A stretch of DNA of 55,609 bases, taken from Verrucomicrobiota bacterium (lineage in GTDB: Bacteria > Verrucomicrobiota > Verrucomicrobiia > Limisphaerales > SIBE01). The notes under the pieces were generated by a model, which saw only the letters and a list, made by a program, of their open reading frames with translations, was not told the DNA's origin and did not search any database. The stretch lies in assembly GCA_016871535.1 (NCBI GenBank), contig VHCZ01000011.1:1-55609 (forward strand), in the 5' to 3' direction. Both the position numbers and the translations under genes were made by a program. Shown in pieces: positions 6,786 through 35,992 of the stretch; position 1 is the stretch's first letter; each line of letters starts with the position of its first letter.

Positions 6786-7838
6786 ATGGTTGGATCACTC
6801 CTGACCCATTTGTTGGTTCCATGGTTGATGTGCCTCGACGCTCCTTTGAACGCGACGTTGGCCCAGGCCAGCGCTCTTCCCAAACCGGATCGAGAAACAG
6901 GCCCGCTCCCGGGCGTCACCTCCACGCAGGCCTGGCCGCGTTACACGCTCAAGATTGACCGGGCCTGGCAGTTGAACGTGCCGGGCGGCAAACCGTTCGA
7001 AGCGTCCGGGCTGCTCTGGACCCACGACGGCCAATTGTTGACGGTCGATAACTCCGCCGTCGGGTTGTACCGGATTCAGTTTTGCAAAGGCTGGCATTCG
7101 CTAGACCTGGAACTTTTGCCGGGCTTGTTTACCCAGCCGCAGCTTGCCTCCTTCCAGAATCAGAGGATCGGTCCTTACGACTGCGAAGGAATCGCGGAAG
7201 ATGCCGAAGGCCGAATCTACGTTTGCGAAGAAGGCAACCGCTGGATTCTGCGGGCTGATCTCAAAGCGAAAACTCTGGAGCGGCTGAAGATCGACTGGGA
7301 ACCGGTGCGCAAGTATTTTCACACCATCGACAGGAACGCTTCCTTCGAAGGCATCGCGATCGGCGGCGGCCACCTCTACGTGGCCAACGAGCGGGCGCGC
7401 GGACGGATCATTGTCGTCGATTTGAAATCGTGGAAGGTCATGGACGATTTCATGGTGCAGCCGCGCGGCAGCAAAGCCCGCGACGTGGATTACTCGGACT
7501 TGTCCTGGTTCGACGGCGCGCTCTGGGTCTTGCTGCGCGAAAGCCGTTGCGTGCTCCAGGTGGACCCGGCGACGCATCGTGTCCTGGCCGAATATGATTT
7601 CCGCGGCGTCGAGGATGACCCGGAATACATCTACTCGAAACGCTTCCCGACGGGCGTGATGGAGGGCCTGGCGGTCGATCGCGATTCCATCTGGCTGGTC
7701 ACGGACAACAATAACATGGGCCGCGTTCGCTTCCCGCGCGACGCGCGGCCGACGTTGTTCCGGTGTTTGCGGCCCGACGTGGAGCATCAGAATCAGGAGC
7801 AAGCCAGGAATCCCGCCGCCAAATTGAAGCCGAAGTGA
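6786..7838 (+). CDS. Exported phytase-like/SdiA-type beta-propeller protein
   Basis: A 350-aa protein with a hydrophobic start (LLTHLLVPWLM) and a likely cut after LAQA. It has propeller-like repeats: SGLLWTHDGQLLTVDN, DCEGIAEDAEGRIYVCEEG, ASFEGIAIGGGHLYVANERA, a WFDGALWVLLRES strand and GVMEGLAVDRDSIWLVTDN. These match the esterase-like-activity-of-phytase family or the related SdiA-regulated family. Glu residues in each EGIA motif are the likely metal or substrate ligands. Substrate and reaction are unknown. The upstream 180 bases contain a dispersed GTTTATTCGTGTCCATTTGTGG sequence. Confidence 0.7.
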   Translation: MVGSLLTHLLVPWLMCLDAPLNATLAQASALPKPDRETGPLPGVTSTQAWPRYTLKIDRAWQLNVPGGKPFEASGLLWTHDGQLLTVDNSAVGLYRIQFCKGWHSLDLELLPGLFTQPQLASFQNQRIGPYDCEGIAEDAEGRIYVCEEGNRWILRADLKAKTLERLKIDWEPVRKYFHTIDRNASFEGIAIGGGHLYVANERARGRIIVVDLKSWKVMDDFMVQPRGSKARDVDYSDLSWFDGALWVLLRESRCVLQVDPATHRVLAEYDFRGVEDDPEYIYSKRFPTGVMEGLAVDRDSIWLVTDNNNMGRVRFPRDARPTLFRCLRPDVEHQNQEQARNPAAKLKPK

Positions 7839-7865
7839 TCGCGGCGAGATCTGGACAGAATTCTC

Positions 7866-7999
7866 GTAGCGCAGGTTTGAAATCTGCCGTATCGCCGACT
7901 TGCACTCGGCTGCGCGACAAACTCACCCGACCGCACCGGATTAGCCGCCGTGCCTCAGATTTCAAATCTGCGATACGGCAGAGTGCAACTCTGCGCTAC
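7866..7999. repeat. GTAGCGCAG...CTGCGCTAC palindromic element, copy 1
   Basis: A terminal inverted repeat (GTAGCGCAG / CTGCGCTAC) encloses smaller inverted pairs around GATTTCAAATCTGC and GATACGGCAGAGTGC. It belongs to the same family as 31738-31871 and 45527-45660 but is diverged. It fills the 272-base gap between two genes. There is no transposase. Confidence 0.8.
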
Positions 8000-8110
8000 G
8001 TCGACGGATCACTGATAAACTCGTGGATGCACTGGCTGTGCGCGAAGCCGAAAAATGCGCTTGCGTCATCGCTGGCCGGGGCCAAAATCTACGGCCTGCA
8101 ACAACTTCCT

Positions 8111-11062
8111 ATGAAAACGATTCGTTCTTCGTCTTGGCTCCTCACGTTCGCACTCGGAACTTCAGCGCTTTCCCTGGCGCCAGTCGCGGTTCAGTCCCAG
8201 GTCATCGCGACGTCCAACACTGAGTTCTCCGGCAATCAAGGACAAAACGGTTGGTCGAATGGATACCGGAATTACACCGCGACCGCGGAAACCGAGAATT
8301 ACGATCGGAAGGCCGATTTCATTCCCTACGCCGGCGGCGCGGGCCAGGGGCCGTGGGACGGCGCGGGCCAGATGTGGACCGGCACGGCGTGGGATTTGAA
8401 CACGGCTTCCGCGGGGCCCTGGACGTTCCAGGGGCCGTCGAGCGTCCATCCGAACGGAATCAACAGCCCGCCGAACGAAGAACATTGGGCCATCCGGCGT
8501 TGGGAAGCCACGGAACTCACGGGCGAGAGTCTGGTGGCGATCGTCTGGACCGTGCGCAAGGAAAACACCGGCGGCGGCAACGGCGTCACCGGCGGCATCT
8601 GGATCAATGGAAAAAGGCTGGTGGCCGTCTCCATCCTGGGCAACGACGGACGCGGCGTCACGCGCACGAATTATGTCAGCATCAAACCGACCGACCTGAT
8701 CGACCTTGTGCTGACGCCCGCCGGGCCAGATGGAGGCCGCGGCGACGGTTCCGACGGTTCCATCACCACCATGCGAATTGAACTCGCGCCTGACACGGAC
8801 GCCGACCAACTCCCCGATGCCTGGGAGAATTTGTATGCGCCGGGCGACCTCGCCAAGTTGAAGGCCACAGGCGACGCCGACGCCGACGGTCTGACCGAAC
8901 TGGCGGAAATGCTCTTGGGCTCAGATCCCACCAAATCGGACACGGACGGAGACGGCCTGGCAGATGGCGTGGAAACCAACACCGGCAAATTCGTCAGCGC
9001 CACAGACACGGGCACCGATCCGTTCAAGAAAGACACCGATGGAGATGGCCGGAGCGACGGCGACGAAATCAAGGTTGCGCCGACGACCGATCCATTTGTC
9101 CGAGACACCGATGGCGATAATTTCCTGGACGGTTTTGAAGCGGCCGCCGGCCACAATCCCAAGGATGGCAACGATAATCCGGAGACAACCGCTATCGTCA
9201 AATCGCGGGACGAATTCTCCGGCGTGCAAGGCGAGAACGATTGGTTTTACGGATACCGCAACGTGACGGCGGATAAACAAGGCAACAAGGATTACGATCC
9301 CCAGACGGCCTTCGTGCCGTTCAAGCCGGAGGAATTTGTCGGCGCGCAATGGGATTTGAACACCGCCGCAGCCGGGCCCTGGGACGAGATCGGCAGGGAA
9401 ACCACCCACCCCAACGGCAGTAACAGCGGCCAGGTCCACTGGACGGTTCGCCGATGGGTGGCGAACAAAGTCACGAAGACCACGCCTTACGCGTTGGTCT
9501 GGCACGTCCGCAAAACCAATCTCGGCACCAGCGGCAATGGCGTGACGGGCGCGCTCCATATCAATGGCAAAGAAGTGGACAAGGCCGTGCTCGCCGGCAC
9601 CGATGGCGTCGGGGTCATCCGGGCTTATTACGCGAATCTTTCTCCAGGCGACATTGTCGATCTCGTGCTCCGACCGACCGGCGCAAACGGCCAGGACAAT
9701 GACGGCCAGGATGGCAGCGCGAACTGGCTCCTGATCGATCCGGTGGTTCCTGCCACACCGTTGCAGCCGGACGGAACGGTCTTTATCCCGGCCGGCGCGG
9801 GCGATACCGACGGGGACGGCATTCCGGACGCCTGGGAGAAAGTCTATTTTGCAAATGACCTGACCAAACTCTCCCGCACAGGAGACGCCGACAACGACGG
9901 CTTGAAGGATCCGGATGAGTTCGCCCGAGACAGCAACCCCACCCTGGCGGATACCGACGGCGACGGCCTCAACGACGTCGTGGAGACCGCGACCGGCAAA
10001 TTTGTCAGCGTGACCGACACCGGCAGCAGCCCGAAAAAGACCGATACCGACGGCGACGGGCGCAGCGACAAAGACGAGGTACTCGGCAAGCCGACCTCCG
10101 ATCCCAACAAACTCGACACCGACGGCGACGGTTTCTCGGATTCGGATGAAGTCACCGAGGGCACCGACCCGAATAACAAGGCGGACAATGTGCTGCTCTA
10201 CCTCATTGCCAATTCGATTACGGAATTCTCAGGGGTTCAGGGAACAAATGGGTGGTTCAATGGCTACCGGAATTTCACGGCCGACGGCGGCGCCACGAAT
10301 TACAATCCCACGGTCGATTTCATTGCTTACAAGGGCGGCCCCGGCCAGGGAACCTGGGATGGCGACGCTCAGCAATGGAATGGGGCCGCGTGGAATTTGA
10401 ATATCGGCGGCTCCGGTCCTTGGACTTCTCAAGGCGCGCAGGACACGCACCCCAATGGCGAAAACAGTTTCCCGAACGAAGAACACTGGACGGTGCGCCG
10501 TTGGGTTTCCACCGAACTGAGCAAAGTCACACCCGCCGCGATCAACTGGCAGGTTCGGAAAACGAATCTGGGTGGGGACGGTGTCTCGGGCGCCTTGTAT
10601 GTGAATGGCAAGCTGCTTGACTCCATCACGATCGACGGGCCGAACGGGACAAATCCAGTCCGGCGCGTTTACGCCAATCTGACCCCTGGCGACATCGTCG
10701 ATGTCACGCTTTCGCCGCAAGGCATCAACAATCGCACCGATGGTCGCGACGGCTCCATCACGTGGTTCACCGTGGACACGCGCATCCCGGCGAATTCGCG
10801 GCAACCGGACGGCGCGGTGTTCGTGCCTGCGGGGGCGCCTGCGGGAGTGAGATTCGAATCCACGACTCTCGACGCCGCCAGGAAACAAATTACGTTCGCG
10901 TGGAGTTCGTCACCCGGCGCCAGTTACACGGTCGAGGTTTCGGAAGATTTGAAGACCTGGAGCGTCCTCCGCGCCGGTTTGCCCAGCGGTGGCGCGAAAA
11001 CCACCTTCACAGAAAATGTCGATTCCGCCAAGCGGATGAAGTTCTATCGAATCCGGCAGTAG
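8111..11062 (+). CDS. Large exported Ca-binding triple-repeat surface protein
   Basis: A 983-aa protein. The ATG at 8111 gives a signal peptide (KTIRSS, a hydrophobic core, cut near VQSQ). Three ~185-residue copies of one domain lie at ~36-227, 362-545 and 700-888. Each opens with EFSG-QG-N-W--GYRN and contains HPNG, HW-(I/V)RRW and W-VRK-N blocks. Thrombospondin-type-3-like calcium loops (DTDGDGLADG, DTDGDGRSD) separate them at ~229-357 and 564-690. The last ~70 residues form the YTVEVSEDLKTW...FYRI module shared with five other proteins here. I infer a cell-surface or secreted binding protein; no catalytic motif is visible. Confidence 0.88.
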   Translation: MKTIRSSSWLLTFALGTSALSLAPVAVQSQVIATSNTEFSGNQGQNGWSNGYRNYTATAETENYDRKADFIPYAGGAGQGPWDGAGQMWTGTAWDLNTASAGPWTFQGPSSVHPNGINSPPNEEHWAIRRWEATELTGESLVAIVWTVRKENTGGGNGVTGGIWINGKRLVAVSILGNDGRGVTRTNYVSIKPTDLIDLVLTPAGPDGGRGDGSDGSITTMRIELAPDTDADQLPDAWENLYAPGDLAKLKATGDADADGLTELAEMLLGSDPTKSDTDGDGLADGVETNTGKFVSATDTGTDPFKKDTDGDGRSDGDEIKVAPTTDPFVRDTDGDNFLDGFEAAAGHNPKDGNDNPETTAIVKSRDEFSGVQGENDWFYGYRNVTADKQGNKDYDPQTAFVPFKPEEFVGAQWDLNTAAAGPWDEIGRETTHPNGSNSGQVHWTVRRWVANKVTKTTPYALVWHVRKTNLGTSGNGVTGALHINGKEVDKAVLAGTDGVGVIRAYYANLSPGDIVDLVLRPTGANGQDNDGQDGSANWLLIDPVVPATPLQPDGTVFIPAGAGDTDGDGIPDAWEKVYFANDLTKLSRTGDADNDGLKDPDEFARDSNPTLADTDGDGLNDVVETATGKFVSVTDTGSSPKKTDTDGDGRSDKDEVLGKPTSDPNKLDTDGDGFSDSDEVTEGTDPNNKADNVLLYLIANSITEFSGVQGTNGWFNGYRNFTADGGATNYNPTVDFIAYKGGPGQGTWDGDAQQWNGAAWNLNIGGSGPWTSQGAQDTHPNGENSFPNEEHWTVRRWVSTELSKVTPAAINWQVRKTNLGGDGVSGALYVNGKLLDSITIDGPNGTNPVRRVYANLTPGDIVDVTLSPQGINNRTDGRDGSITWFTVDTRIPANSRQPDGAVFVPAGAPAGVRFESTTLDAARKQITFAWSSSPGASYTVEVSEDLKTWSVLRAGLPSGGAKTTFTENVDSAKRMKFYRIRQ

Positions 11063-12207: not shown

Positions 12208-12512
12208 TGGACGTTCGCTGACGGGCTCTTTGTGGAAACAGGCGGAGCGCTTTTTATAGACTGAATTTCAGGGTTGCTGTTTTAGGTCTGTGCCAGAGTA
12301 GCAATCTCCCCGTGGTGAAACAAGCAGGAAGTCCTGGGGGTTTCTGGGGCTTGCTCCGTTCTGCGAATTTCCTTTTCAGGCTTCCGGCGAGATTTAGACT
12401 GCCCTCGCACAGCAGGCAGATCCTCGCCGGTGAGCCGAACCCCGATGCCCCAGCGTGATCCTATCGGTGGACAAAGCCGAATGTGCCAAACGCTTTCAAG
12501 ACCACACGACAC
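12208..12512. other. Intergenic, divergent promoter region
   Basis: About 300 bases lie between the divergent pseudopilin and TIG-protein starts. No credible gene and no repeat recognised elsewhere in the window was seen. Promoters for both genes should lie here, but I could not assign -35/-10 boxes with confidence. Confidence 0.5.
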
Positions 12513-15500
12513 ATGAGAATTCAATCACGCCCGGCGCCGCGAGCTGCCGCTTCTCCTTCTCCTAATCCTACTCGTAATCCTAATCATAATCTCTCCAACA
12601 GGATCAGGAGTAGGATTAGGATTAAGATTAGGAACAAGCCGCGGTGGCCCAACGGCACGCTTTCGGTCGGGTTCCCGCTTCTTGCGCTCCTTTTCCTCGC
12701 CAGCGGTTTTGATCTCGCTGCGCAAAGCAACACCACTTTTCCGCGCCAGCAAGTCCCCGCGATTCCTGGCCGGGTTAAGAGCTTCCAAGCTATGGCCGAG
12801 GCAGAGAAATCATTGCCGCCGATCTACCAACCGATTTCCGTGCCCCCCTTCAATTTGATCTCGGAGGCCACGCCGGAAAGCGCCGGTTTGTCCGCTGTCG
12901 TTCCGGGCGTGCCGCGTCTGGTCCGGAAAAACGTGGCGCCCGCGAACCTCCCTCCGCCTGCCCCGAAAGCCGGGTTCCTGGGGCTGGAGGACAACGACCG
13001 CGCGATCCCGCCCGACACGCAAGGCGCGGTGGGCCCGAACCACTTGCTGGTCGCGCTCAATTCTCAGGTGCGAATCCAGACGCGGACGGGCGAAGCGTTG
13101 AGCACCGTGACGCTCTTCCGCTTCTGGACCAATCTCGTGGACGGCGTGGTCAATACTTTTGACCCGCGCGTGCTCTACGACTCGGCGGCCGAACGCTGGG
13201 TTCTGGTTACGGGCGCGAACAGCCAGAAGACCAATTCACTTCTTTTGGTCGCCGTGTCCGAGACCAGCGATCCCACCGGGAATTGGTTCGGCCGGGCTGT
13301 GCCGGGCGACTCGTCCAAAGTGCACTGGGCGGACTTTCCAATCGTTGGGCTTAACGCCAAGTGGCTGGCGGTCACGGCGTCACTCTACACGGTTGGCACC
13401 AATAAATTCGGGCTCTCCCGCGTAAACGTGTTTGACAAAACCAGGCTTTACTCCGGCGGCGCCGCACCGATTTCGGCCACGACGTTCGACGACAAATCCG
13501 CGCCCGTTCTGGCGCCTTCGGTGGATTACGATCACAGCCATTCGACCATGTATTTCATCAACACCGTGAACGGGAATTCTTCGGGGAAAGGATTCCTTCG
13601 CCTCAGCACGCTTGGTGGCGAGCTGGGAGCGGAAGTTTATGAGGCCGGAATCGCCTTCCCCGCCACGACGAACACCTGGGCCGCATTTCCCAATCCGCAG
13701 GATTTCGCGCCGCAACTCGGCACCGAGAAGAAGATTCACAACGGCGATCATCGGATGCCCGGCAGCGTGGTTCTGAGGAATGGTTCGCTCTGGGTCGCGC
13801 ACAACGTGTTCTTGCCGACCGAGGCGCCCACGCGCAGTTCCGTGCAATGGTGGGAACTGGATCTGGCAGGCGATGTCCGGCAGTTCGGGCGCATGGACGA
13901 CGCCACCGGCAGAAACTTCTACGCTTACCCCAGTCTCGCCGTGAACAAGAACAACGACCTGTTGATCGGATATTCGCGGTTTTCCGACACGCAGTACGTG
14001 AGCGCCAATTACTCGTTCCGCGCGGCCACCGACCCGGCAAATACTCTGCGCGCGGACACGGTGTTGAAAAACGGCGAATCCGCGTATGTGAAAACCGTGT
14101 CCGGCACACGCAACCGCTGGGGGGACTACAGCAGCACCGTCGTCGATCCCATCAACGACCTGGACCTGTGGACGCTTCAGCAATACGCCGGCACGCGGAC
14201 CAACTCCTGGGCCACGTGGTGGGGGCGCTTCATCCTCGAACCATCCGGCGTGCCGCCTTCGATCACCTCCTTCAGTCCCGCGACCGGCGGCGCCGGAGCC
14301 ATCGTGACGATCATCGGAGCGAAGCTGACCGAAACGACGGCCGTCGCCTTCAATGGCGTCAACGCTACGGCCTTCACCGTCCATTCCTCAAGCCGTGTGA
14401 CCGCCATCGTTCCGCTGGGCGCTTTGACCGGCCCAATCCGCGTCACGACCGTGGATGGCGCGGCCACGACGACGGAGAATTTCACGGTGCTTCCTACGCC
14501 GGCCATTGCGGGCTTCGCGCCGGATCGCGGCGGACCCAACAGCACCGTCGTGATCACCGGAGCCAATCTCACCGGAGCCACCGGCGTGAAATTCAATGAG
14601 GTGAATGCCGCCGCTTTCAAAGTCGATTCCCCGACCCAAATCACCGCGACCGTCCCGGCGTCCGCCACGACGGGCCGCATTACCGTCACGACACCCAGCG
14701 GTGTGGCGACGAGCGCCGCAAGTTTCACGGTGACTTTGGAACCGGCCATCTCGCGGGTGACACCGGCCAATGGCGGAGTCGGCATGACGATCACGATCAC
14801 GGGCGCGAACTTGAATGTCGCGACGGAAGTTCGCTTCAACGGACTCCGCGCACTCCAGATGAGCGTGCAGTCCGCCACTCAAATCACAGCGACCGTCCCG
14901 CCGGGCGCCACCAGCGGCTTCATCGAAGTGATCGCGCCCAACGGCACGGCGCGCAGCCCCGAAAGCTTCGGCATCGTCCCCACGCCGATCCTTTCGGACT
15001 TCAGCCCGAAGAGCCAGTTTATCGGCGGAGCGATCACCCTCATCGGCGCGAACCTCACCGACGCTTCGCTGGTTCAGTTCAACGGGATTGTGGATCCGAC
15101 CTTCACGGTGGATTCCGCGAGGCAGATTACCGCGCGAGTCCCGGTCGGCGCGACCAGCGGCCAGATTACGGTGACGACGCCGGGCGGAACCGCGACGAAC
15201 GATCTGGCCTTCGTGGTTTTCCCTCCGCCCTCGAACGATCTCTTCATCAATGCGCAAACGATTGCCGGCACTTCCGGAAGCGTCGTGGGCAGCAACGTCG
15301 GCGGGACCAAGGAAACTGGGGAACCGGACCATTTGCCCGAAGACGCGCAATCTCTGGGCGGCCGGACGATCTGGTATCGGTGGATCGCGCCCGCCAGCGG
15401 CACGTGGAACTTTCACACCGCCGGCAGCAAGATCGACACGATGCTGGCGGTTTACACCGGCACGAGCGTCGCGCGATTGACGCCCGTCGCATCGAACGAT

Positions 15501-18023
15501 GACGCCGACTCCGGCACGGGCACGAGCAGCGTTTCCTTCGCGGCTGTTCTGGGCGCGGTTTATCAAATTGTGGTTTCCGGTTTCCGCGACACCTCCGGCG
15601 AAATCACCTTATCCTGGGCGAGCGCGATTGCCCGGCCGAACATTGACAATCTTAGTCCGAACAGCGGCCCCGTGGGGAGCGTCGTGATTGTGCTGGGCGC
15701 GAACTTTACGGGCGCCACCGAAGTAAAGTTCAACACCGCGGCCGCACCGGATTTTACCGTTGATTCGCCCAACCGAATCACCGTGCGCGTCCCCGCCAGC
15801 GCAAGCTCCGGGCCGCTCAGCGTGACCACGGCCCTTGGCGTCGCGTCGAGCACGACCCTCTTCACGGTGACACTGCCGGTGAGCAACGATCATTTCGCCA
15901 ATGGCCTTCTGCTGACGGGAACTTCGGGAACGATTTCAGGCGACAACACCGGCGCCAGCTTTGAACTGGGCGAACCCAGACACGCCAGCCTGAGCGCCGT
16001 GAAATCGCTCTGGTACCGCTGGACCGCGCCCACGAGCGGGCGATGGACTTTCGACACGCGCGGCGCCGCCTTCGACACCGTCCTGGCGGTGTACACCGGC
16101 GCTGCGCTCACCAACCTCGCCGTGATCGCGAGCAACGACGACGCGCAGGGCGCCACCACGAGTTCGCTGGCGTTCGATGCCGTGGCGGGCACGCTGTATC
16201 ATGTCGCGGTGGATGGTTACGCGACCGGCTTCGGAAAAGTCGTGCTCAACTGGACGTTTTCCGGAGACACGCCGAAGATTCAGAGTTTTACCCCGACTCG
16301 TGGCGACACCGGCTCCAACGTCACGATTGCCGGCGAGAATTTCGCCACCAACAGCGTGGTGGACTTCAACGGAATTCGAAGCGCCGCCGCGGTTGTCGAA
16401 TCGCCCACGCGCATTGTTGCCAAAGTGCCCGACAATGCCACGACTGGCCCGATCCGCGTGACGACGCCGCGCGGGGCTGCGCTGAGTTCGGCTTATTTCG
16501 TGGTCAGCAATTCCGACGCGCCGGACAACGATCTATTTTCTGACGCGAAGATGCTGACCGGAAACGCCTGGGTGACCGCGGGCCGAACCACCTCGGCGAG
16601 CAAAGAACCCGATGAGCCGGATCACGCCGGAGACACGGGCGGCCGGTCGGTTTGGTATCGCTGGACTGCTCCGGAGAACGGCGCCTGGATTCTCGGCGCC
16701 GCCGGCAGTAGCTTCGACACCATCCTCGCGGTCTATACGGGCGGCAGCCTGACGAACCTCGTGGTTGCCGCGGGCAACGACGACGCGGACGGCGCTGCCA
16801 CGAGCAAGGTGAAATTCCAGGCCAAGGCGGGAACGACTTACCATTTCGCCGTGGACGGCTTCAACGGCGAGAGTGGAAGTGTAATCTTGAGGCTGGTCCC
16901 CGCCGCCGAACCGAGAGTGGTCTATTCAACCGGGTTTGAAGCCGGCGAAGGTTACCAGGCGCAGCAACCGCTGGCGGGCCAGCAAGGCTGGAACAAATCC
17001 GGCACGGGCGGGCAGGCCATCGTCGTGAATCCTCTTTTCGGCGCCGGGCAGCAAGCGCAAGTCGGCGGGATTGTGGCCGGGCAAACCGCGCGCACCTCCG
17101 TCTGGAAACCCATCACCAACACACTGCCCGTCGTGGAATTCTCCACGGCGCTTCTGATCACCGAATCCACCAACGGCGAGAGCGACTTTTTCGATTTCGC
17201 CGTTTTTAACCCGGACGGCCAGCGCTTGTTCTCGCTCGACTTCGACAACTTCGGCTCACTCGTGAGTTACGAGTTGAATGACGGCGAAGGGACGCGCATC
17301 ACCGGCGTGAGTTTTGACAACAACCGCGTGTATCGACTCGCGATCTCGATGGATTTCCGAAACAACACCTGGAGCGCATTTCTCGATCAGGAAGTGCTCG
17401 TGACGGACCGGCCCATCACGACCTATGGCGCGGCGCTGCAACTCGGATTCATCGATGCCGCCTGGCTGACCGATAACACGCCCGGCGACAACGCCCTGGT
17501 GTTCGACAACTACCGCATCGTCGCCGAAACCAACGCGCCGCCGGCGATCTTTGCGCAGCCGCAGAACTTGACTGTCACCCAGGGCGCTCAGGCCATGCTC
17601 GGCGTCGCGGCGCGCGGCACGGAGCCGCTGACTTATCAGTGGCGATTCAACGACAAGCCCGTCACGGGCGCGACAAATGCCGTGTTGATTCTGAACAATG
17701 CGTTGGCGACTCAGGCCGGGGGTTACGTGGTCGAAATCAAAAATGAGTTCGGCGCCGTCGTCAGCCAGCCGGCGACCTTGTCTGTGAATCTCGCCGCGGC
17801 CGCCGCGTCGCTCAAACTGAGCGGCGGTCCGTTGCTCCCGGACGGGCGTTTCCCGCTGACCTTGACCAGCGCGCCTAGCGCATCATTCACGATCGAAGCC
17901 TCGACCGATCTCAGCCAGTGGACCGAAGTCGCGTCGGGGGTGAATACGAGCGGGACGTTCAATTTCTTTGACGACCGGGCGCGGACTTTTCCGCAACGCT
18001 TCTTCCGGGCCCGGCAGCGATAA
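12513..18023 (+). CDS. Giant exported TIG/PPC/Ig-domain surface protein
   Basis: 1836 aa from the ATG at 12513 (an ATG at 12483 would add 10). The hydrophobic signal core lies unusually late (~54-72). It is preceded by an Arg/Asn/Pro-rich stretch encoded by a hairpin repeat (12556-12635). A propeller-like region follows (~150-580, opening DNDRAIPPDTQGAVGPNH). Six IPT/TIG Ig-like domains come next: four in tandem at ~581-905, then ~1043-1122 and ~1253-1331. Three PPC-type domains alternate with the later ones, each with a WYRW-AP motif and a LAVYTG motif. A jelly-roll-like domain lies at ~1468-1673 and an Ig domain at ~1675-1760. The shared C-terminal module is FTIEASTDLSQW...RFFRARQR. I infer adhesion or matrix binding. 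Confidence 0.88.
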   Translation: MRIQSRPAPRAAASPSPNPTRNPNHNLSNRIRSRIRIKIRNKPRWPNGTLSVGFPLLALLFLASGFDLAAQSNTTFPRQQVPAIPGRVKSFQAMAEAEKSLPPIYQPISVPPFNLISEATPESAGLSAVVPGVPRLVRKNVAPANLPPPAPKAGFLGLEDNDRAIPPDTQGAVGPNHLLVALNSQVRIQTRTGEALSTVTLFRFWTNLVDGVVNTFDPRVLYDSAAERWVLVTGANSQKTNSLLLVAVSETSDPTGNWFGRAVPGDSSKVHWADFPIVGLNAKWLAVTASLYTVGTNKFGLSRVNVFDKTRLYSGGAAPISATTFDDKSAPVLAPSVDYDHSHSTMYFINTVNGNSSGKGFLRLSTLGGELGAEVYEAGIAFPATTNTWAAFPNPQDFAPQLGTEKKIHNGDHRMPGSVVLRNGSLWVAHNVFLPTEAPTRSSVQWWELDLAGDVRQFGRMDDATGRNFYAYPSLAVNKNNDLLIGYSRFSDTQYVSANYSFRAATDPANTLRADTVLKNGESAYVKTVSGTRNRWGDYSSTVVDPINDLDLWTLQQYAGTRTNSWATWWGRFILEPSGVPPSITSFSPATGGAGAIVTIIGAKLTETTAVAFNGVNATAFTVHSSSRVTAIVPLGALTGPIRVTTVDGAATTTENFTVLPTPAIAGFAPDRGGPNSTVVITGANLTGATGVKFNEVNAAAFKVDSPTQITATVPASATTGRITVTTPSGVATSAASFTVTLEPAISRVTPANGGVGMTITITGANLNVATEVRFNGLRALQMSVQSATQITATVPPGATSGFIEVIAPNGTARSPESFGIVPTPILSDFSPKSQFIGGAITLIGANLTDASLVQFNGIVDPTFTVDSARQITARVPVGATSGQITVTTPGGTATNDLAFVVFPPPSNDLFINAQTIAGTSGSVVGSNVGGTKETGEPDHLPEDAQSLGGRTIWYRWIAPASGTWNFHTAGSKIDTMLAVYTGTSVARLTPVASNDDADSGTGTSSVSFAAVLGAVYQIVVSGFRDTSGEITLSWASAIARPNIDNLSPNSGPVGSVVIVLGANFTGATEVKFNTAAAPDFTVDSPNRITVRVPASASSGPLSVTTALGVASSTTLFTVTLPVSNDHFANGLLLTGTSGTISGDNTGASFELGEPRHASLSAVKSLWYRWTAPTSGRWTFDTRGAAFDTVLAVYTGAALTNLAVIASNDDAQGATTSSLAFDAVAGTLYHVAVDGYATGFGKVVLNWTFSGDTPKIQSFTPTRGDTGSNVTIAGENFATNSVVDFNGIRSAAAVVESPTRIVAKVPDNATTGPIRVTTPRGAALSSAYFVVSNSDAPDNDLFSDAKMLTGNAWVTAGRTTSASKEPDEPDHAGDTGGRSVWYRWTAPENGAWILGAAGSSFDTILAVYTGGSLTNLVVAAGNDDADGAATSKVKFQAKAGTTYHFAVDGFNGESGSVILRLVPAAEPRVVYSTGFEAGEGYQAQQPLAGQQGWNKSGTGGQAIVVNPLFGAGQQAQVGGIVAGQTARTSVWKPITNTLPVVEFSTALLITESTNGESDFFDFAVFNPDGQRLFSLDFDNFGSLVSYELNDGEGTRITGVSFDNNRVYRLAISMDFRNNTWSAFLDQEVLVTDRPITTYGAALQLGFIDAAWLTDNTPGDNALVFDNYRIVAETNAPPAIFAQPQNLTVTQGAQAMLGVAARGTEPLTYQWRFNDKPVTGATNAVLILNNALATQAGGYVVEIKNEFGAVVSQPATLSVNLAAAAASLKLSGGPLLPDGRFPLTLTSAPSASFTIEASTDLSQWTEVASGVNTSGTFNFFDDRARTFPQRFFRARQR
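12556..12635. repeat. CCTAATC/GATTAGG hairpin repeat inside a coding region
   Basis: The left arm has repeats of CCTAATC and CGTAATC (12556-12592). The right arm has GAGTAGGATTAGGATTAAG (12601-12635). They share GAGTAGGATTAGGA in inverted orientation and can fold into an imperfect hairpin. It is in frame within the N-terminal region of the TIG protein, before the signal-peptide core. Confidence 0.8.
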
Positions 18024-20103: not shown

Positions 20104-20606
20104 GGCTTTCCTTGTTTCATGGTGGATCTTGAAGAGGAAACTTAACTGGACCAGGCTTCCGGTGCCAGGATTTGCTTCCCCACGCTTCCCGACGCGCAAG
20201 TTTCCTTCGATCTCCCGGAGGGAGAGCTTCTGAGTGCTTGTTTCTGAAAAACGTGGCGCTGACGTAAGACCCGCTTTTCCGATTTGCCTGAGAATTCGGC
20301 CTCGTTACCTCGGCTGCTACGAACAGCGGTCATTCTCAAAACACGCTCTGAGCTGAGGGAAACGAGCAATCGAGGGCACGCCAGCGGATTACGCGCGGCT
20401 GATTCAAGAAGGAGCGCGAGCAGCTTGCCCGCGCGGGCTGCCTGAAGATCTCGAAGAAAGCCGGCCGGCAGGCTGCCCGCGCTCCTTTCGCCAGATTCTT
20501 GACTCAGCGGTGCGGATTACGCGCGGCAGCCGCAATTCTCTTTCGCTCCAGGCGAGCAATCCCTATCCTCCCTCGCAGCACACAACATCCAAACCTGAGA
20601 CGTCTT
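20104..20606. other. Intergenic region with palindromic repeats
   Basis: About 500 bases between divergent genes. The pair GGAGCGCGAGCAGCTTGCCCGC / GGCAGGCTGCCCGCGCTCC lies at ~20410-20488. GCGGATTACGCGCGG is directly repeated near 20386 and 20511. Around 20240-20330 is a repeat-like stretch. No gene is supported. Confidence 0.55.
20410..20488. repeat. GGAGCGCG-GCAGC palindrome
   Basis: An inverted pair of ~20 bases separated by ~40 bases, with GC-rich stems. It lies upstream of the lectin/CotH gene. Confidence 0.65.
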
Positions 20607-23600
20607 ATGCACCATGCTCGTCTTGTTCTCTGGGCAGCGGCCTGGCTCGCTGCTGCGCCCTTCGTCCTGGCCGCCAGCTACCCGCCCGGCAATTCCAATC
20701 AAATCTTCGAGTTCACAGACGCGACCGTCGATCTCGCTGATGGCACGCTAATCGGCTCAGATCAACCAGCAGGTTCGGGAGCTCCAGTGGCCGGTGTCTA
20801 TGGAAAAGCGCTTCGGCTGGCCGAGCGAAACGCGCCCCATGCCATCGGCTCCTTCAAACTCCCAGACCTGGATCCTGGCAACGTCATCAAAAGTTTCGAC
20901 CTCAAGTTCAATGTGATCATGGACACGCCGACGGGCGCAGCGTCGGGCGAAGGTTGGTCGATCAACTTCGGGCGCATCCCGAAGGACAACGGCACAGGCG
21001 AAGGCGGGTTCGCGCCGTTGCCAGGCGGTTTGACCATTGCCTTTGACACGCTCGACGCCGCCAACGATCCGCCTTCGATTGAAGTGTTCATCGGCGGGGT
21101 GAGCATCACCAATGTCCAAAGGTCGTTCCTATTCAGTCCGTCCAGCCGCGCGGTCGTGATCCACTGGGATTCGGCCGGCTTGGATCTGAGCTTTGAAAGC
21201 CGGCCGGTTTGCACAGACTTGCCGACGCCGGGCTTCACGCCGGGCGTGGGGGATCAGTTCGCTTTCACCGCGCGGACCACGACGACCGGCATGCATGTGA
21301 GCATAGACGATCTTCGGGCCACGACCCTCGCGGTTCCCGTCATCGACACCGGCGGGCCGATCATTTCGGAATTCGTCGCCAACAACAGCGAGTTCGAAGA
21401 CGAATTTGCGGACAAGCCAGGCTGGATCGAACTGATGAACGGCTCAGCGGCCTCGGTGGATTTGGCCGGATGGTATCTCACCGATTCCAAAGCCAATCTG
21501 ACGAAATGGAAAATCCCGGCCCTGACAATGACTCCTTACAATTATCAAGTCGTCTTCGCGTCGGGGCGCAGTCGCCAACTCTCCGCGACGAGCTTTTTGC
21601 ACGCGGGTTTCAACCTGGCCAGGAGCGGCGGTTACCTCGCGCTGGTGCGGCCTGATGGAAAGACGATTGCCAGCGCGTTTGAATACGGCCCGCAGGAGAA
21701 AAATGTGGCCTATGGGGAAAAAGGAACCGAACGCAAACGCGGCTACATGTATCCTGCGTCTCCCGGCACCGTGAACACAATGGTTCCCGCGCCGGCGTCC
21801 CTCAGTCCGGAACCGGAATTCTCGCATGCGGGCGGGTTCGTGAGCGAGCCCGTGACGCTGAGTCTGTCGGCCCCCAGTGTGCCCGGCGCAGAAATTCGTT
21901 ACACGCTGGACCGGACGGAGCCGGGACCGGCCTCGTTGCTCCTCACCAATTCGCTGTCCATCACGCAATTCACGACCGTCAAAGCGCGCGTCTATGCGCC
22001 GGGCCACCTGCCCGGTCGGGCGAGCAGCCGCACGTTCGTCCCGATGGATGCTTCGCTGGCAAACTACGCCGGCACGGGAAAAGTTTTCGATTCGAATCTG
22101 CCGCTGATTTTTGTGGACAGTTTCGGCGTCAACATCGATGGCTCCACCGGCGGCTCCCGGCCGTTTCGTCCCAGCTACGCCGTCGTGATTCAGCGCGACC
22201 CCAAGACCGGACGGGCCAGCCTGACCACGCCGCCTGAATATGCCGGGCCTGCGGGAGTCCACGTGCGCGGGGAAAGTTCGGCCGGCTTCGACCAGCGCAG
22301 CTATTCACTGGAATTGTGGGACGAAGCGGCCAGAGACCGCGACGCCAGTTTGCTCGGCATGCCCGCGGAATCGGATTGGGCGTTGATCGGCCCCTGGAGC
22401 GAGAAGACCCTGATGCGGAACAAACTGGTCTTCGATTGGATGATCGCGCTGCGCGGTGAAGACGGCACCTCGGTGCGCAGCCGGTTCGTCGAGCTGTTCT
22501 TCAATCAAGTTCGGCCCGTGGCGGGACGCGTCGGCTACACCAGCTACCGGGGCATTTACCTCCTCACGGAAAAACTCAAACGCGGCAAGGACCGCGTGCC
22601 GATCGAGAACCTCAATGACAAGACCGTCGATCCCGAATTGATCACGGGTGGCTACATCTTTCGCAAAGACAAGGATGACGCGTTGAAGAGCAACTGGACG
22701 ACTTCGCGATTCGCGATTCCGCTGCAGAGCTTCGATCCGGATCGTTTGAACTCGACTCAGCTTCTTTACCTGCGCACTAACATCAACTCGTTTGAGACGG
22801 CGCTCAACGGCGCGAACTTCCGCAACCCCACCAACGGCTACCGCGCATACATTGACCCGGACACTTTCATCGATGCGCAGTGGTTGCTCGAGATTTCCAA
22901 ACAGGTCGATGGCTACGTGTTCAGCACCTACTTCCACAAAGATCGCGCCGGCCGGCTGCGGGCCGGGCCGTTGTGGGATTTCAACATTTCGCTCGGCAAC
23001 GCGGATTACGCGACCGGCGACCGCGCCACGGGCTGGCTTTACGACAACGCCAACGGCGCCGGGCAACTCTGGTATCCGCGGCTCCACGCCGATCCCGATT
23101 ACAAACTGGCGCACTGGGATCGATATTGGCAAATGCGCCGAACGATCTTTGCCACCCAGAATGTTTTAGCCACGATTGACGGGCACATGGCGACGCTCCT
23201 CGACGATTACACGGGCGCCGTGAGCAATCGCGCCCCGGCGGAGATCCAGAATCCCGTCGCGCGCCATTTCCGAAAATGGCCGCGCCTGGGCACGCGCGAC
23301 TGGCCTAACCCCGCCGGCGAAACCAAGATTCGAACCTGGCAAGCGGAGGTGGATTATTTGAAAAACTGGATCGTGCCGCGCCTGGAATGGCTGGACGAAC
23401 AGAGTTTGCGCGCCGGGAGAGTTGTGTATCGCCCGCCCGTGTTCAGCCACGACGGCGGCCCGATCTCCGCGCCCGTCCAACTTGCCATCGAGCCCTATCG
23501 CCGCGTTCAACTCACCAATCAGTATCCGGAAGGCGACCTCTATTACACGTTGGACAGTTCCGATCCGAGGCTTCCCGGCGGCGACATCAGCAGCGCGGCT

Positions 23601-24638
23601 CTCAAATACTCCGGACCGATCAGCCTTCAATCTTCCGTCACCGTGAACACCCGGCTTTACTTCCAGAGGCAATGGACGCCGCTGGCCACGGCGACGTTCT
23701 TCTTCAACGCCGCGCCGGCGAGCGCCGCGAATCTGGTCGTTTCAGAAATCATGTATCGTCCCGCGCTGCCTACGGCTGCGGAAACGGCCGCGGGGCTGGT
23801 CGATGCCGGGCAATTTGAATTCCTCGAACTGCGCAACATCGCGAAACACGCGATCGATCTCTCCGGGGTGAAGCTGGTCAACGGCGTGGATTTCGATTTT
23901 GCCTTCGCTCCCGTGTCCGCCAGACTCTTGAAGCCCGGGGAATCCGTCGTGCTGGTCGCGGACAGGCGGGCTTTCTCGATTCGCTACCCGCAAGTTCCCG
24001 GCTCAAGAATCGCGGGCCAGTTTCGGGGCCGCCTGGACAACGCCGGTGAAACCATCGCGATCCAGGCAGCGGACGGCAGCATGATCAAGGAATTCCAGTA
24101 TGACAACAACACCCCGTGGCCGCCGCTGAGTGACGGCGACACCCTGAGCCTCGTGCTGAAGGAACCGGCCACGAACCCAAATCCCGCGGATCCTTCGCGT
24201 TGGATTCTGAGCGTGAGGACAGGCGGCACGCCCGGCGAGTCTGGGACCGGCGCGGACATTTTTGTCGGCGATCCGGCGAAAGACAGTGACGGCGACGGGT
24301 TGAGCGATCTTTTTGAATTTGCCACCGGTTCCGATCCGGAGAATCCCGCTTCTCGGTTCGGCCCCACGGCAGCCGTCGCGCCATTCGAGGTCAACGGCGT
24401 CAAGGCCAGCTACGTCACTCTGGAATTCCGTCGCCGACCGGCTGCGCGCGGCGTGAAGTTCGCGGTCGAATCGAGCCAGGACCTCCACTCCTGGAGCGCC
24501 GCAGATTCAAATCTGACTCTGATTGGCTCCAAGGAGAATCGCGACGGCACGGTCACCGACACGTATCGCGCCAATGCCGCGTTGCCCAACAGCGCAAACC
24601 GAACGATGTTTTACAGATTGAAGGTGCAGATGCAGTAA
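20607..24638 (+). CDS. Large exported lectin/LTD/CotH-kinase-domain protein
   Basis: 1343 aa from the ATG at 20607 (signal peptide HHARLVLW, Ala-rich core, cut near LAAS). Order: a legume-lectin-like beta sandwich (~28-238); a lamin-tail-like LTD domain (~249-345, GWIELMNGS...LAGWYLTDS); a chitobiase/hexosaminidase C-terminal-type Ig domain (~403-482, IRYTLDRTEPG); and a CotH-type kinase fold (~498-801, HVRGESSAGFDQRSY, RGIYLLTEKLKRG, GPLWDFNISLGN). A second chitobiase-like domain follows (~945-1035, YYTLDSSDPRLPGG), then a second LTD (~1042-1165), one Ca loop (DSDGDGLSD) and the shared C-terminal module (FAVESSQDLHSW...FYRLK). CotH kinases phosphorylate surface proteins in spores; the role here is unknown. 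Confidence 0.9.
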   Translation: MHHARLVLWAAAWLAAAPFVLAASYPPGNSNQIFEFTDATVDLADGTLIGSDQPAGSGAPVAGVYGKALRLAERNAPHAIGSFKLPDLDPGNVIKSFDLKFNVIMDTPTGAASGEGWSINFGRIPKDNGTGEGGFAPLPGGLTIAFDTLDAANDPPSIEVFIGGVSITNVQRSFLFSPSSRAVVIHWDSAGLDLSFESRPVCTDLPTPGFTPGVGDQFAFTARTTTTGMHVSIDDLRATTLAVPVIDTGGPIISEFVANNSEFEDEFADKPGWIELMNGSAASVDLAGWYLTDSKANLTKWKIPALTMTPYNYQVVFASGRSRQLSATSFLHAGFNLARSGGYLALVRPDGKTIASAFEYGPQEKNVAYGEKGTERKRGYMYPASPGTVNTMVPAPASLSPEPEFSHAGGFVSEPVTLSLSAPSVPGAEIRYTLDRTEPGPASLLLTNSLSITQFTTVKARVYAPGHLPGRASSRTFVPMDASLANYAGTGKVFDSNLPLIFVDSFGVNIDGSTGGSRPFRPSYAVVIQRDPKTGRASLTTPPEYAGPAGVHVRGESSAGFDQRSYSLELWDEAARDRDASLLGMPAESDWALIGPWSEKTLMRNKLVFDWMIALRGEDGTSVRSRFVELFFNQVRPVAGRVGYTSYRGIYLLTEKLKRGKDRVPIENLNDKTVDPELITGGYIFRKDKDDALKSNWTTSRFAIPLQSFDPDRLNSTQLLYLRTNINSFETALNGANFRNPTNGYRAYIDPDTFIDAQWLLEISKQVDGYVFSTYFHKDRAGRLRAGPLWDFNISLGNADYATGDRATGWLYDNANGAGQLWYPRLHADPDYKLAHWDRYWQMRRTIFATQNVLATIDGHMATLLDDYTGAVSNRAPAEIQNPVARHFRKWPRLGTRDWPNPAGETKIRTWQAEVDYLKNWIVPRLEWLDEQSLRAGRVVYRPPVFSHDGGPISAPVQLAIEPYRRVQLTNQYPEGDLYYTLDSSDPRLPGGDISSAALKYSGPISLQSSVTVNTRLYFQRQWTPLATATFFFNAAPASAANLVVSEIMYRPALPTAAETAAGLVDAGQFEFLELRNIAKHAIDLSGVKLVNGVDFDFAFAPVSARLLKPGESVVLVADRRAFSIRYPQVPGSRIAGQFRGRLDNAGETIAIQAADGSMIKEFQYDNNTPWPPLSDGDTLSLVLKEPATNPNPADPSRWILSVRTGGTPGESGTGADIFVGDPAKDSDGDGLSDLFEFATGSDPENPASRFGPTAAVAPFEVNGVKASYVTLEFRRRPAARGVKFAVESSQDLHSWSAADSNLTLIGSKENRDGTVTDTYRANAALPNSANRTMFYRLKVQMQ

Positions 24639-24747: not shown

Positions 24748-25755
24748 TCACGAGTACCACTTCCGCAAACGGACCTCGACGCTCACGTCCTTTCCGATGA
24801 GCTGTTTGAACCGATTCACGTCGCTGCTGGAGTAGTGATACGGATAGACGACCTTGGGACGAAACTCCCGCACCGCGCTGGCGGCTTGATTGATATCCAT
24901 CGTGAACGGCAGGTTCATGCAAACGAACGCCATGTCGATGTTCTGCAAGGCGCGCATTTCCGGGATGTCCTCTGTGTCGCCAGCCACGTAGATGCGCTTG
25001 CCGCCGATGGTCAGGACGTAGCCGTTGCCGCGGCCTTTGGTGTGGCCGGTGCGGCCCGGTGTGATGTTGTACATTGGAATGGCTTCGACAGTGATGCCCT
25101 GAACCTCGGCTTTGTCGCCATTGGCCATGACTTTGGTTTTGGCTTTCAAGTCGCTCGCCAACTGCTGATAAACCGCTTGCGGCGCGACAATTTCTGCGTT
25201 CTTCGCGTCAATCGCCGTGAGCGTCGCGGCGTTGAGGTGATCGCCGTGAATGTCCGTGATGAAAATAATGTTCGGGCGCGGCAGCCTCTGGAAACGCGTG
25301 CCGCCGCCGACCGGGTCGAAGTAGATGATTTTGTCCTTCCATCTCGCCGCGAAGGTCGCGTGATCGATCGGATACACCACGACGTCGCCGTCCGACGTCA
25401 CGAGATGATCGCCCGTCATCGGGGTGGGCGAGGCCAAGTGCATGGCGCGGTAGTATCGGACCGGCAGGTAAGGAGCCGTGGAATCCGTGTAACTCTGCGC
25501 CGCGGGCGCGGCGGGAAACGTGTAGAGCGGCGTCCAGGTGACCAGATCCGTGGAGACCTCCAGCCGCACGTTGTTATTCGTGGGAACATTGAGGCGCAAA
25601 AGGATTTCTCCTCCGGCTTGATGCTGGACGGCGGTAAAGCTCGGTCTGGAAGGGTCCGCGTTGGAAGTAAGCTGCGCGGTCACTGATGGAATAAGGAAGC
25701 TCAACGCCAATCCCAGCAGCGGGAGGGCGGGCGTGTGAATTCGCGGCATTTTCAT
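24748..25755 (-). CDS. Exported metallo-beta-lactamase-fold hydrolase with N-terminal surface module
   Basis: 335 aa. The ATG at 25755 has GGAG just upstream. After a signal peptide (cut near VTAQ) comes the shared module: VRLEVSTDLVTWTPLY ending VRYYRAMH (~60-105). The rest is a UlaG-type MBL fold: FITDIHGDHLN (metal ligands; the first His of HxHxDH is Asp here), GHTKGRGNGYVL, IYVAGDTED and a final PYHYSSSD. The family hydrolyses phosphoester, lactone or amide bonds; no substrate is evident. The fusion of the module to an enzyme is notable. Confidence 0.85.
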   Translation of the reverse strand: MKMPRIHTPALPLLGLALSFLIPSVTAQLTSNADPSRPSFTAVQHQAGGEILLRLNVPTNNNVRLEVSTDLVTWTPLYTFPAAPAAQSYTDSTAPYLPVRYYRAMHLASPTPMTGDHLVTSDGDVVVYPIDHATFAARWKDKIIYFDPVGGGTRFQRLPRPNIIFITDIHGDHLNAATLTAIDAKNAEIVAPQAVYQQLASDLKAKTKVMANGDKAEVQGITVEAIPMYNITPGRTGHTKGRGNGYVLTIGGKRIYVAGDTEDIPEMRALQNIDMAFVCMNLPFTMDINQAASAVREFRPKVVYPYHYSSSDVNRFKQLIGKDVSVEVRLRKWYS

Positions 25756-33504: not shown

Positions 33505-34647
33505 TTAGATCAGATCCCACGGCTTTCGGGCTTTGCGCTCAAGCAATGCCGCAGCTTGCGGGTCGTCAAGGATCTGTTCCTTGTCCGGATCCCAGCGAAT
33601 TTTCCGGCCACCGACTTTGTAGGAAATATTTCCAAGATGCGCGACGATGGTTGACTTGTGCCCGATCTCGACATCCGCCACGAACCGTTGCCGCGACCGC
33701 ACGCAGTCGATGAAGTTGCGCGCGTGCAGATCGGTGCAGTCGCGGCCGGCGACCGATTTGGGTTCCCCGCCGCCGCGCGCCGCCGGGAAGATCTCATAGC
33801 CGACCCGGTCGGAAAAAATTGTGCCTTTGGCGCCGTAGAACGCTTCGCCATGAGGACGGTCGTGAGCGCCGGAGGCGTTGTACGGGACCCGTCCGCCGGG
33901 CAGGCGCGGCCCCGTGCCAAAGCCGTTGAGCTGAATTCCCTCGTAGCTCAGGACCCAATCTTTGTACTCGTACGTCACATGGAGAACGTTCGGCGTGTCG
34001 ATCATGCTCTTCGGTCCGTGCAATCCCCCCACCCCCATCGCGGACAGCGGCCGATCATCATGCATCACTTGATGCACGGAATCGAGCCGGTGCGCGCCGA
34101 AGTCCGTGATGAACCCCCCTGAGTAATCATAGAAACGCCGGTAAGTGCGAAAGCGCAGGTTATTGAAGGGAACCTTGGGCGCCGGTCCGAGATACATGTC
34201 CCAATCCAGGCTTTCCGGCGGATCGGAATCCGGAGGCGGGCCGCCCGCGGCCGTATAGACCGTGGAATAGTTGCAGACATGCACGAAATGGACTTCGCCA
34301 ATCTGGCCGCTCTGGATGATGTCCTCGACCTCCTTGTAATGCGGGGCAGAGCGGTGCTGGAGGCCGGTTTGCACGACCCGGTTATAACGCCGGGCTGCTT
34401 CGACCATCGTGCGGCCCTCGCGGATCGTGAGGCCCAGCGGCTTCTCGACAAACACATCCTTGCCCGCCTGACACGCCAGCAGGGTGGGAATCGCGTGCCA
34501 GTGATCCGGCGTCGCGACGACGACGGCATCGACTTCCTTCATTTCAAGAATTTTTCGGAAATCGCGAAATGATTGGGCGGTTGCTCCGGCCCATTGTTTG
34601 GCCGAAATAAAGACGGCCCTCCTCCTCTCCCCAGCCCTCTCCTCCAC
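33505..34647 (-). pseudogene. Gfo/Idh/MocA oxidoreductase missing its N-terminus
   Basis: 380 codons are open, but the Tat signal and the GxGxxG dinucleotide loop are absent. Homology begins around FRDFRKILEMKEVDAVVVA and continues normally through TPDHWHAIPTL, VEKPLGLTIREG, GGFITDFGAHRLDSVH and the C-terminal domain to KPWDLI. The preceding codons (EERAGERRRA) come from a CCCTCTCC palindromic repeat at 34622-34672. Without the nucleotide loop it should not bind NAD(P). I infer deletion or recombination at the repeat. Confidence 0.82.
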
Positions 34648-34672
34648 TTCATGGAGGAGAGGGAGTTTCGCC
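34622..34672. repeat. CCCTCTCCTCC...GGAGGAGAGGG palindrome
   Basis: TCTCCCCAGCCCTCTCCTCC, then TTCATGGAGGAGAGGGAG. It is shared with 18590-18620 and 47126-47170. It sits exactly at the broken 5' end of the oxidoreductase gene. Confidence 0.8.
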
Positions 34673-34738: not shown

Positions 34739-35992
34739 TCAGAAGAACGGAGTCTCGGGCTGGAGTTCGCCGGTCATCAGGGTGCGGACGTGATTCTCAA
34801 CGGCCTGTTTCAGTCCATTGAACGTTCCGGGAAACTGGCCGTTGTTGTCGGCGTAGCCTCCCTCCAAAATCGAGACCACCCGCCCGCCGCTGAAGGCATC
34901 CGCGATATCCATGACTTTGCGCGTCAGGAGCGAATACCCGCGCGCCGTCAATCCCAGGCCGCCCATGAGGTCGCCTTTCTTGCTGTCGAACCCCGCGCAA
35001 ATCAGAATCAGATCGGGTTTGAATTCCTTCGCCAGGGGCAGCATCTCATTCTCCCATTCGCGGAGAAAGCCGTCGTTGCCCGGATTTCCCGTCATGAGGC
35101 CGTGGTGGGATTCATCGCCGCCGGAATAGAAGCCGCCCGCGCAGGTGTCGTAGAACAGAAACGCCGGGTCGTTCCCGACAAAGAACTGCGTGCCATTGCC
35201 ATGATGGTAATCCCAGTCCACGATCATGACACGTTTGATGAAATTCGGATAGCGTTCCAGGGCAAAGCGCCCCGCGATGACCGCATTGGCGTGACAACAG
35301 AAGCCGTAGGAATAGCCGCTGTTGATCTGATGGTGGCCCGGCGGGCGGATGTTGCAAAAGGCATTTCGGATTTTGCCCTCGCAGACATCTCGCACCGCGC
35401 CCAGAACGTGCGCCGTGGCCAGATCCGCGATCACGCCGATTGGTTCCGTGGCCCCGTGGCCCTGGTCAATCGGAATCGAATGAATGCCCTGGATGTGAGC
35501 CGGGGTGTGGACCATGGCGATATACGCGCCTGCGTCGGGCACAGGCTCAATCGGAGCCAGCTCGCCGAGCAATCCTTGATCCTTCAGTTGCTGGTTGATC
35601 GACAGGACGCGCTGCGGCACTTCGGCGGAATTCTGGTAGTAATTCGCGAAACGCGGATCGAACGCGTAGCCGGTTTGCCAGGTGCCGGCCGATTGCAGGT
35701 TCGGCGCCCGTTGCGGTTGGAGAATGCGGAAGAACTTGGTGCGCTCGCTGATGGTCAGGCTGGCGGCCAGCCGATTCGTCGTGGCGAGATAAACTCCGGC
35801 CGGGCGCCAGGGACCGTGCAGCGAACTCGTCTCTTCAAGTGTGTAGCTTCGACCTGGAGCAGCCTCCCAGGCGATCACGACGCCATTTTGCTGGGCGCGG
35901 ATGACCGAGCAACGAAGGCTGTTCTGTCCGTGTGCCATCGTGCTGAAAGAGAGTGCCACGAGCACAAGCGTCGCCTGGAGAGCGCGGGCCAT
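34739..35992 (-). CDS. Exported histone-deacetylase-superfamily hydrolase with N-terminal module
   Basis: A 417-aa protein. The signal peptide is ARALQATLVLVALSFSTMA, cut near HGQ. The shared beta module spans ~35-92 (YTLEETSSLHGPW...TKFFRILQPQ). The arginase/deacetylase fold follows: NIRPPGHHQ (~214-222, His dyad), DWDYHHGNGTQ with zinc ligands D261 and H263, CAGFDSKKGD with D336, and ILEGGY (~376-380). All catalytic residues are present. The family removes acyl groups from amines (acetylpolyamines, acetyl-lysine). A secreted, module-tethered form is uncommon. The targets may be extracellular acetylated amines or amino sugars (inference). Confidence 0.9.
   Translation of the reverse strand: MARALQATLVLVALSFSTMAHGQNSLRCSVIRAQQNGVVIAWEAAPGRSYTLEETSSLHGPWRPAGVYLATTNRLAASLTISERTKFFRILQPQRAPNLQSAGTWQTGYAFDPRFANYYQNSAEVPQRVLSINQQLKDQGLLGELAPIEPVPDAGAYIAMVHTPAHIQGIHSIPIDQGHGATEPIGVIADLATAHVLGAVRDVCEGKIRNAFCNIRPPGHHQINSGYSYGFCCHANAVIAGRFALERYPNFIKRVMIVDWDYHHGNGTQFFVGNDPAFLFYDTCAGGFYSGGDESHHGLMTGNPGNDGFLREWENEMLPLAKEFKPDLILICAGFDSKKGDLMGGLGLTARGYSLLTRKVMDIADAFSGGRVVSILEGGYADNNGQFPGTFNGLKQAVENHVRTLMTGELQPETPFF

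Follow-up and report, generated by a model that had tools for sequence, protein, structure and literature searches.

A predicted exported histone-deacetylase-family enzyme with a reshaped core in a Verrucomicrobiota bacterium

Classical deacylases of the histone deacetylase (HDAC) superfamily have been studied chiefly as enzymes of the cell interior. In a stretch of 55,609 nucleotides from a Verrucomicrobiota bacterium (contig VHCZ01000011.1 of assembly GCA_016871535.1; ‘the window’ in what follows), one open reading frame had been annotated as a secreted member of this family, with a complete active site and a ‘shared surface module’ at its N-terminus. Such a gene raises the question of whether a bacterial HDAC might leave the cytoplasm in a working form and, if so, upon what it might act. 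The reading that we consider reasonably probable is that the protein leaves the cytoplasm and is a zinc amidohydrolase with a competent active site, of the class-II-like HDAC type (cluster 1), predicted to act as a short-chain N-deacylase.

Gene, fold and active site

The coordinates, strand and frame given in the initial annotation are correct (the stop-to-stop frame adds merely five codons upstream of the start), and the product, judged from its sequence, is a classical zinc deacylase of the HDAC superfamily (Table 1). The Pfam Hist_deacetyl model (PF00850) matches residues 124-384 with 162.2 bits, against a curated cut-off of 27.9 (E 2.4e-47). A phmmer search of the PDB matched 128 sequences, the top one being HDAC6 (E 5.9e-65, two domains), with Burkholderia 5ji5 as a single-domain match at E 2.2e-36. 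An AlphaFold model built from an alignment of four rows, which is of modest quality (pLDDT 66.0, pTM 0.67), is plainly of the HDAC kind, matching 5ji5 (Z 30.6, 2.8 A over 278 residues) and, at Z near 29-30, HdaH, HDAC6 and HDAC10.

Table 1. Features of the HDAC-family gene (positions in the window)
Feature	Position	Strand	Evidence
Whole gene, HDAC-family enzyme, 417 aa	34739..35992	-	ORF and translation; PF00850 E 2.4e-47
Signal peptide, residues 1-22 (predicted)	35927..35992	-	heuristic; coding in ortholog, dN/dS 0.24
Beta-sandwich module, residues 23-95	35708..35926	-	common to other window proteins; model pLDDT 79.6, six strands
Catalytic part, residues 105-417	34742..35680	-	Pfam, phmmer against PDB, structure comparison
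RPPGHH, residues 216-221, foot-pocket motif and His dyad	35330..35347	-	alignments
C233-H234, replacing hydrophobic/aromatic residues of other HDACs	35291..35296	-	no Cys233 and no His234 in 81 others
D259-W-D261-Y-H263-H264, charge relay and zinc ligands	35201..35218	-	alignments
Remodelled segment, residues 282-303: C284 for conserved His, K+2-ligand strand apparently missing	35084..35149	-	alignments; dN/dS 0.025 (residues 280-310)
D336, zinc ligand	34985..34987	-	alignments
EGGY, residues 377-380, catalytic Tyr380	34853..34864	-	alignments

The active site, which had been described as complete, is indeed so, in that the RPPGHH motif, all three zinc ligands and EGGY are present, and residues H220, H221, D259, D261, H263, D336 and Y380 are identical in all 81 of the other HDACs aligned. 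Klebsiella HdaH served as the reference for residue mapping (its numbering is that of the published KpHdaH, with RPPGHH at 139-144 and EGGY at 310-313), and in this alignment the dyad, the charge-relay residues, the zinc ligands and the catalytic tyrosine all agree. Section 13 of PMC11532494 treats the combination of RPP with EGGY as the mark of short-chain deacetylases; both motifs, which also define cluster 1 (class II), are found here. The fold, the active-site residues, RPPGHH and EGGY are thus common to the window protein and to cluster 1 bacterial deacylases and class II HDACs such as KpHdaH and HDAC6 (classes as given in the same survey). Unlike these, the window protein adds a predicted signal peptide and an N-terminal module, has a short L2 loop, a shortened Y289-D336 segment and cysteine for histidine at position 284, and seems to lack the strand with the ligand of the second potassium ion. 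It also lacks an L1 loop of the 1b type: by eye, the L1 insertion of HdaH (sub-cluster 1b) has no counterpart in the region that separates two conserved stretches, F-x-x-x-Y/H and E-x-P.

Export, the N-terminal module and relatives

The signal peptide was called by a heuristic that looks for a positive n-region, an uncharged hydrophobic h-region and small residues at -3 and -1. Applied to 1053 internal start codons, it gives 86 hits (8%), and among 27 core-type cytoplasmic HDACs it gives none. In the window protein, whose n-region has a single arginine, it places a Sec-type cleavage site after MARALQATLVLVALSFSTMAHG, between AHG and QNS. The ortholog (L062; JACPRI010000342.1, from the Verrucomicrobia MAG NC_groundwater_675), which is 86% identical and equal in layout, retains a signal-like N-terminus, so that the signal peptide claimed at the outset is borne out as a prediction, and these findings support predicted export by the Sec route. 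Comparison of the two genes codon by codon gave a dN/dS of 0.11 overall, indicative of purifying selection; by region, the values are 0.24 (residues 2-22), 0.17 (module) and 0.073 (residues 105-417). The whole frame is maintained, and with it the N-terminus.

An iterated HMM search of all frames in the window (first additions at E 0.00075; final pass at 1.6e-22 or better for three large plus-strand proteins) located the module at the extreme C-termini of the products of 7763-11062, 12483-18023 and 20499-24638 (all +), along with a weak match in 24748-25755 (-; E 0.019). The sharing of the module with other proteins of the window is therefore real, while nothing in these data justifies the word ‘surface’. 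Neither Pfam nor NCBIfam names a family for residues 23-95, many genomes of the order contain stretches that resemble the module (best E 7.6e-8), and the module modelled alone is predicted to be a six-stranded beta structure (pLDDT 79.6). Foldseek with this model found nothing in the PDB at E 0.001 or better; in the VIA structure comparison, domains of FN3 and Ig type matched weakly, at Z no higher than 7.0, a likeness that may reflect a common arrangement only. Among the carriers, 12483-18023 encodes 1846 residues with six TIG / choice-of-anchor Z repeats and an Ig domain before the terminal module, and 20499-24638 encodes 1379 residues with CotH kinase, lamin-tail and Fn3-associated domains before it. 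The product of 24748-25755 has a signal-like start, the weak module copy and then a metallo-beta-lactamase domain (PF12706), from which layout two metallohydrolases of the window may share an order of signal, module and enzyme.

That HDACs are normally cytoplasmic, as the initial annotation had assumed, proves too simple for the phylum: 21 of 45 class-II-like homologs (ortholog excluded) look exported, with Sec, Tat or lipoprotein signals, a fraction that is not a census, since resemblance to the query decided which homologs were included. Eighteen of these were labelled by rule and three (L006, L033 and L070) by eye after the rule had missed them; of the eight rows that joined the set afterwards, L099, L100, L109 and L110 likewise received the export label by eye. 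The curated NCBIfam Tat model placed L005, L035 and L036 above its cut-off (3 of 10 proteins) and did not confirm L033, L099 or L100. HDACs with predicted export signals are thus frequent in Verrucomicrobiota among the homologs examined, and are not unique to the window protein.

A maximum-likelihood tree built from 58 rows puts the window protein in a clade of eight (support 100/100), six of which look exported; with the eight further rows it falls in a clade of 11 (100/99), with eight exported-looking and three cytoplasmic-looking members. (L004, which is the same protein as L062, and L002, L065, L026, L015, L017, L030 and L031 were dropped before alignments and trees, and 16 core-type rows and L076 from the trees only.) On the larger tree the export label requires eight changes, against a mean of 21.0 for shuffled labels (none of 500 as low as 8), and at least six of the changes are forced by strongly supported branches, so that export has apparently been gained or lost repeatedly. 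The initial annotation had named, as evidence against its own reading, clustering with cytoplasmic enzymes that lack the N-terminal module; only the second half of this applies, since the relatives in the clade do lack the module but mostly carry export signals. Exported-looking HDACs of the class-II-like type, from Verrucomicrobiota and elsewhere (L033, L035, L036, L063, L099 and L100), share with it a well-supported clade, a short L2 and export signals; they differ in having no module and in keeping the core strand, and are about 40% identical to it (a figure taken from L063).

A survey of 320 genomes in the order gave matches at E 1e-25 or better in 15 of them, with residues 1-417 covered only in the window genome and in one other (G001); within the family, the full-length form is found in two of eight genomes. 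The window genome has a second, short HDAC as well (L001, a frame of 298 residues), of a type common in relatives: 56 of 58 genomes match at E 0.001, module-only matches included. Viral contigs yielded one HDAC (L065, 31% over residues 209-381) and five weak phage matches, none of the window type.

Other architectures were encountered among these homologs. L110 (106-2232, -) is a frame of 709 residues in which a signal-like stretch is followed by some 300 residues that match nothing in Pfam and then by a complete HDAC domain; L089 (5798-7786, -) is a lipoprotein-like fusion of FGE-sulfatase and HDAC domains, beside an MBOAT O-acyltransferase gene. L083 (1372-2424, +), a plasmid HDAC of Methylobacterium indicum, is annotated from a non-standard start, with a Tat-like stretch (RRGFAAGSAALALAAG) in the upstream frame for which the curated Tat model gave no confirmation; the annotated start may have cut off a signal.

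A literature search, which left most subscription journals outside its reach, turned up no exported bacterial HDACs besides the type IV secreted enzymes of Legionella. Neither ‘signal peptide’ nor ‘periplasm’ appears in the main text of PMC11532494, the large survey of bacterial enzymes; it describes Legionella LphD (cluster 3) as type IV secreted. By that description alone, LphD resembles the window protein in being a bacterial family member that leaves the cytoplasm (as predicted for the latter), and differs in being an effector delivered into host cells and in belonging to another cluster. Of two further papers, one concerns how class IV HDACs, most of them eukaryotic, are targeted (PMC13325672), and the other merely uses HDAC inhibitors (PMC8517400). 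If an exported class is real, the extracellular deacetylation of proteins or metabolites becomes testable.

The reshaped core

The segment from Y289 to D336 comprises 48 residues in the window protein and its ortholog and 52-61 in the 81 other HDACs, a shortening that the initial annotation had overlooked. Position 284 is cysteine in these two proteins and histidine in 80 of the 81; position 282 of the window protein is also uniquely changed, and the stretch after EGGY is longer in the same two proteins only. The GxGxxxNxPL strand of the eight-stranded parallel sheet (HdaH 226-230) cannot be aligned in the window protein: its positions are occupied in 73 of 75 rows and are gaps in the window protein and the ortholog. 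Within this strand lies Tyr227 of KpHdaH, described in section 12 of PMC11532494 as a ligand of the structural K+2 ion; the corresponding position is a gap here. For HDAC8, both potassium sites have been proposed (PMC4016748) to stabilise and activate the enzyme. A different stretch may stand in for the strand: the model is at pLDDT below 50 there (residues 285-303), and the shortest core-type rows are only 4-5 residues longer. A sequencing fault is unlikely, given the strong constraint on this region (dN/dS 0.025 over residues 280-310).

If an exported class exists, the reshaped core offers a natural test of the need of HDACs for the second potassium site. It is tempting, if speculative and on balance doubtful, to place the enzyme in an unrecognised extracytoplasmic branch of HDACs with several gains or losses of export, and to suppose that in this genus the strand with the K+2 ligand was shed, so that the enzyme would work without the second potassium ion in a potassium-poor exterior, the region being stabilised by the new residues C233, H234, C284, H296 and H297. 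The idea that exported HDACs in general are adapted to potassium was rejected, because the serine position of the first potassium site is still serine in most exported rows.

The L2 segment (H162-V200) spans 39 residues in the window protein and ortholog, 29-31 in the nine other members of the clade, 45-54 in class-II-like rows outside it and 40-41 in core-type rows. With its substrate-side loops shortened, the active site is probably more open than that of HdaH or ApaH.

Function and genomic setting

If the exported deacylase reading is right, the signal peptide would lead the protein into the Sec pathway, and the beta-sandwich module would stand ahead of the enzyme outside the cytoplasm. The enzyme would take short acyl groups, most likely acetyl, off amines: H220 and H221, which are present, would activate the zinc-bound water and Y380, also present, would stabilise the intermediate, while RPP and EGGY would keep the foot pocket small (both mechanisms being borrowed from the family). 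The candidate substrates would rank, in order of preference, as acetylated peptides or proteins, which are preferred to polyamines, then small amides, then acetylated glycans.

Of the extracytoplasmic deacylation proposed initially, predicted export with an intact active site is supported, while the acetylpolyamines that had been put forward for assay are not favoured. An exported polyamine deacetylase, rejected as the lead idea, is given only a slight chance: ApaH and HDAC10 share the superfamily, RPPGHH and EGGY with the window protein, but the glutamate gatekeeper and extended L2 loop that section 16 of PMC11532494 gives as criteria for polyamine deacetylases (cluster 4), as well as the PIS of ApaH/HDAC10, are absent from it, its gatekeeper site reading L342-M343-G344 with no PEG or PIS motif. 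An exported small-molecule amidase, akin to the cluster 1 dimethoate and propanil hydrolases and with a site opened by the loss of loops, is unlikely, if the foremost of the alternatives. The short L2, the shortened Y289-D336 segment and the likeness of the predicted structure to 9gkw (Z 29.9) and 9gku (Z 29.4) would suit it; the dimethoate and propanil hydrolases, however, carry RPA (PMC11532494, section 13) where the window protein has RPP. Deacetylation of extracellular glycans or amino sugars is quite improbable, although an exported HDAC-FGE fusion in the genome G403 lies beside a gene for an MBOAT O-acyltransferase and one with a carbohydrate-binding domain, both distant kin from another clade: the genes adjoining the window gene include no glycan enzyme, and no glycan deacetylase with the HDAC fold is known.

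Two further readings deny export or activity. That the protein is cytoplasmic, its N-terminus being no signal, has very little likelihood; the call comes from the heuristic only, the n-region has one arginine and three members of the clade are without signals, but the other carriers of the module either bear signals or are large proteins of secreted type, the ortholog has retained the N-terminus and most of the clade looks exported. The unusual C233, H234, A235 (a position that is Asn in 71 of the 81 other HDACs) and C284 lie near the active site, so that activity might be changed or lost, and these unique changes (233-235, 282 and 284), together with the apparently missing strand, could point to an exported binding protein that has retained the HDAC fold in inactive form. 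This is the least probable of the alternatives, given that all catalytic and metal residues are kept and that the catalytic part evolves under a dN/dS of 0.073.

The neighbours of the gene give no pointer to the substrate of the favoured exported deacylase. On its two sides, in the window genome and in that of the ortholog alike, are genes for a class V aminotransferase and for a Gfo/Idh oxidoreductase, in changed order; in the eight genomes of the family (its own included), the aminotransferase occurs in four and the Gfo/Idh gene in seven. An operon function built on this pair was rejected, and no functional link is claimed, because both genes occur in relatives without the enzyme. A promoter scan found none; terminator-like sites number 4, against 1.7 expected. 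The Gfo/Idh gene itself (33505-34647, -) looks truncated, being without about 71 N-terminal residues (the signal and dinucleotide-motif region) of the 94%-identical copy in G001. At its 5' end (34621-34662) lies a GC-rich, near-palindromic repeat, of which the genome has a second copy with 3 mismatches.
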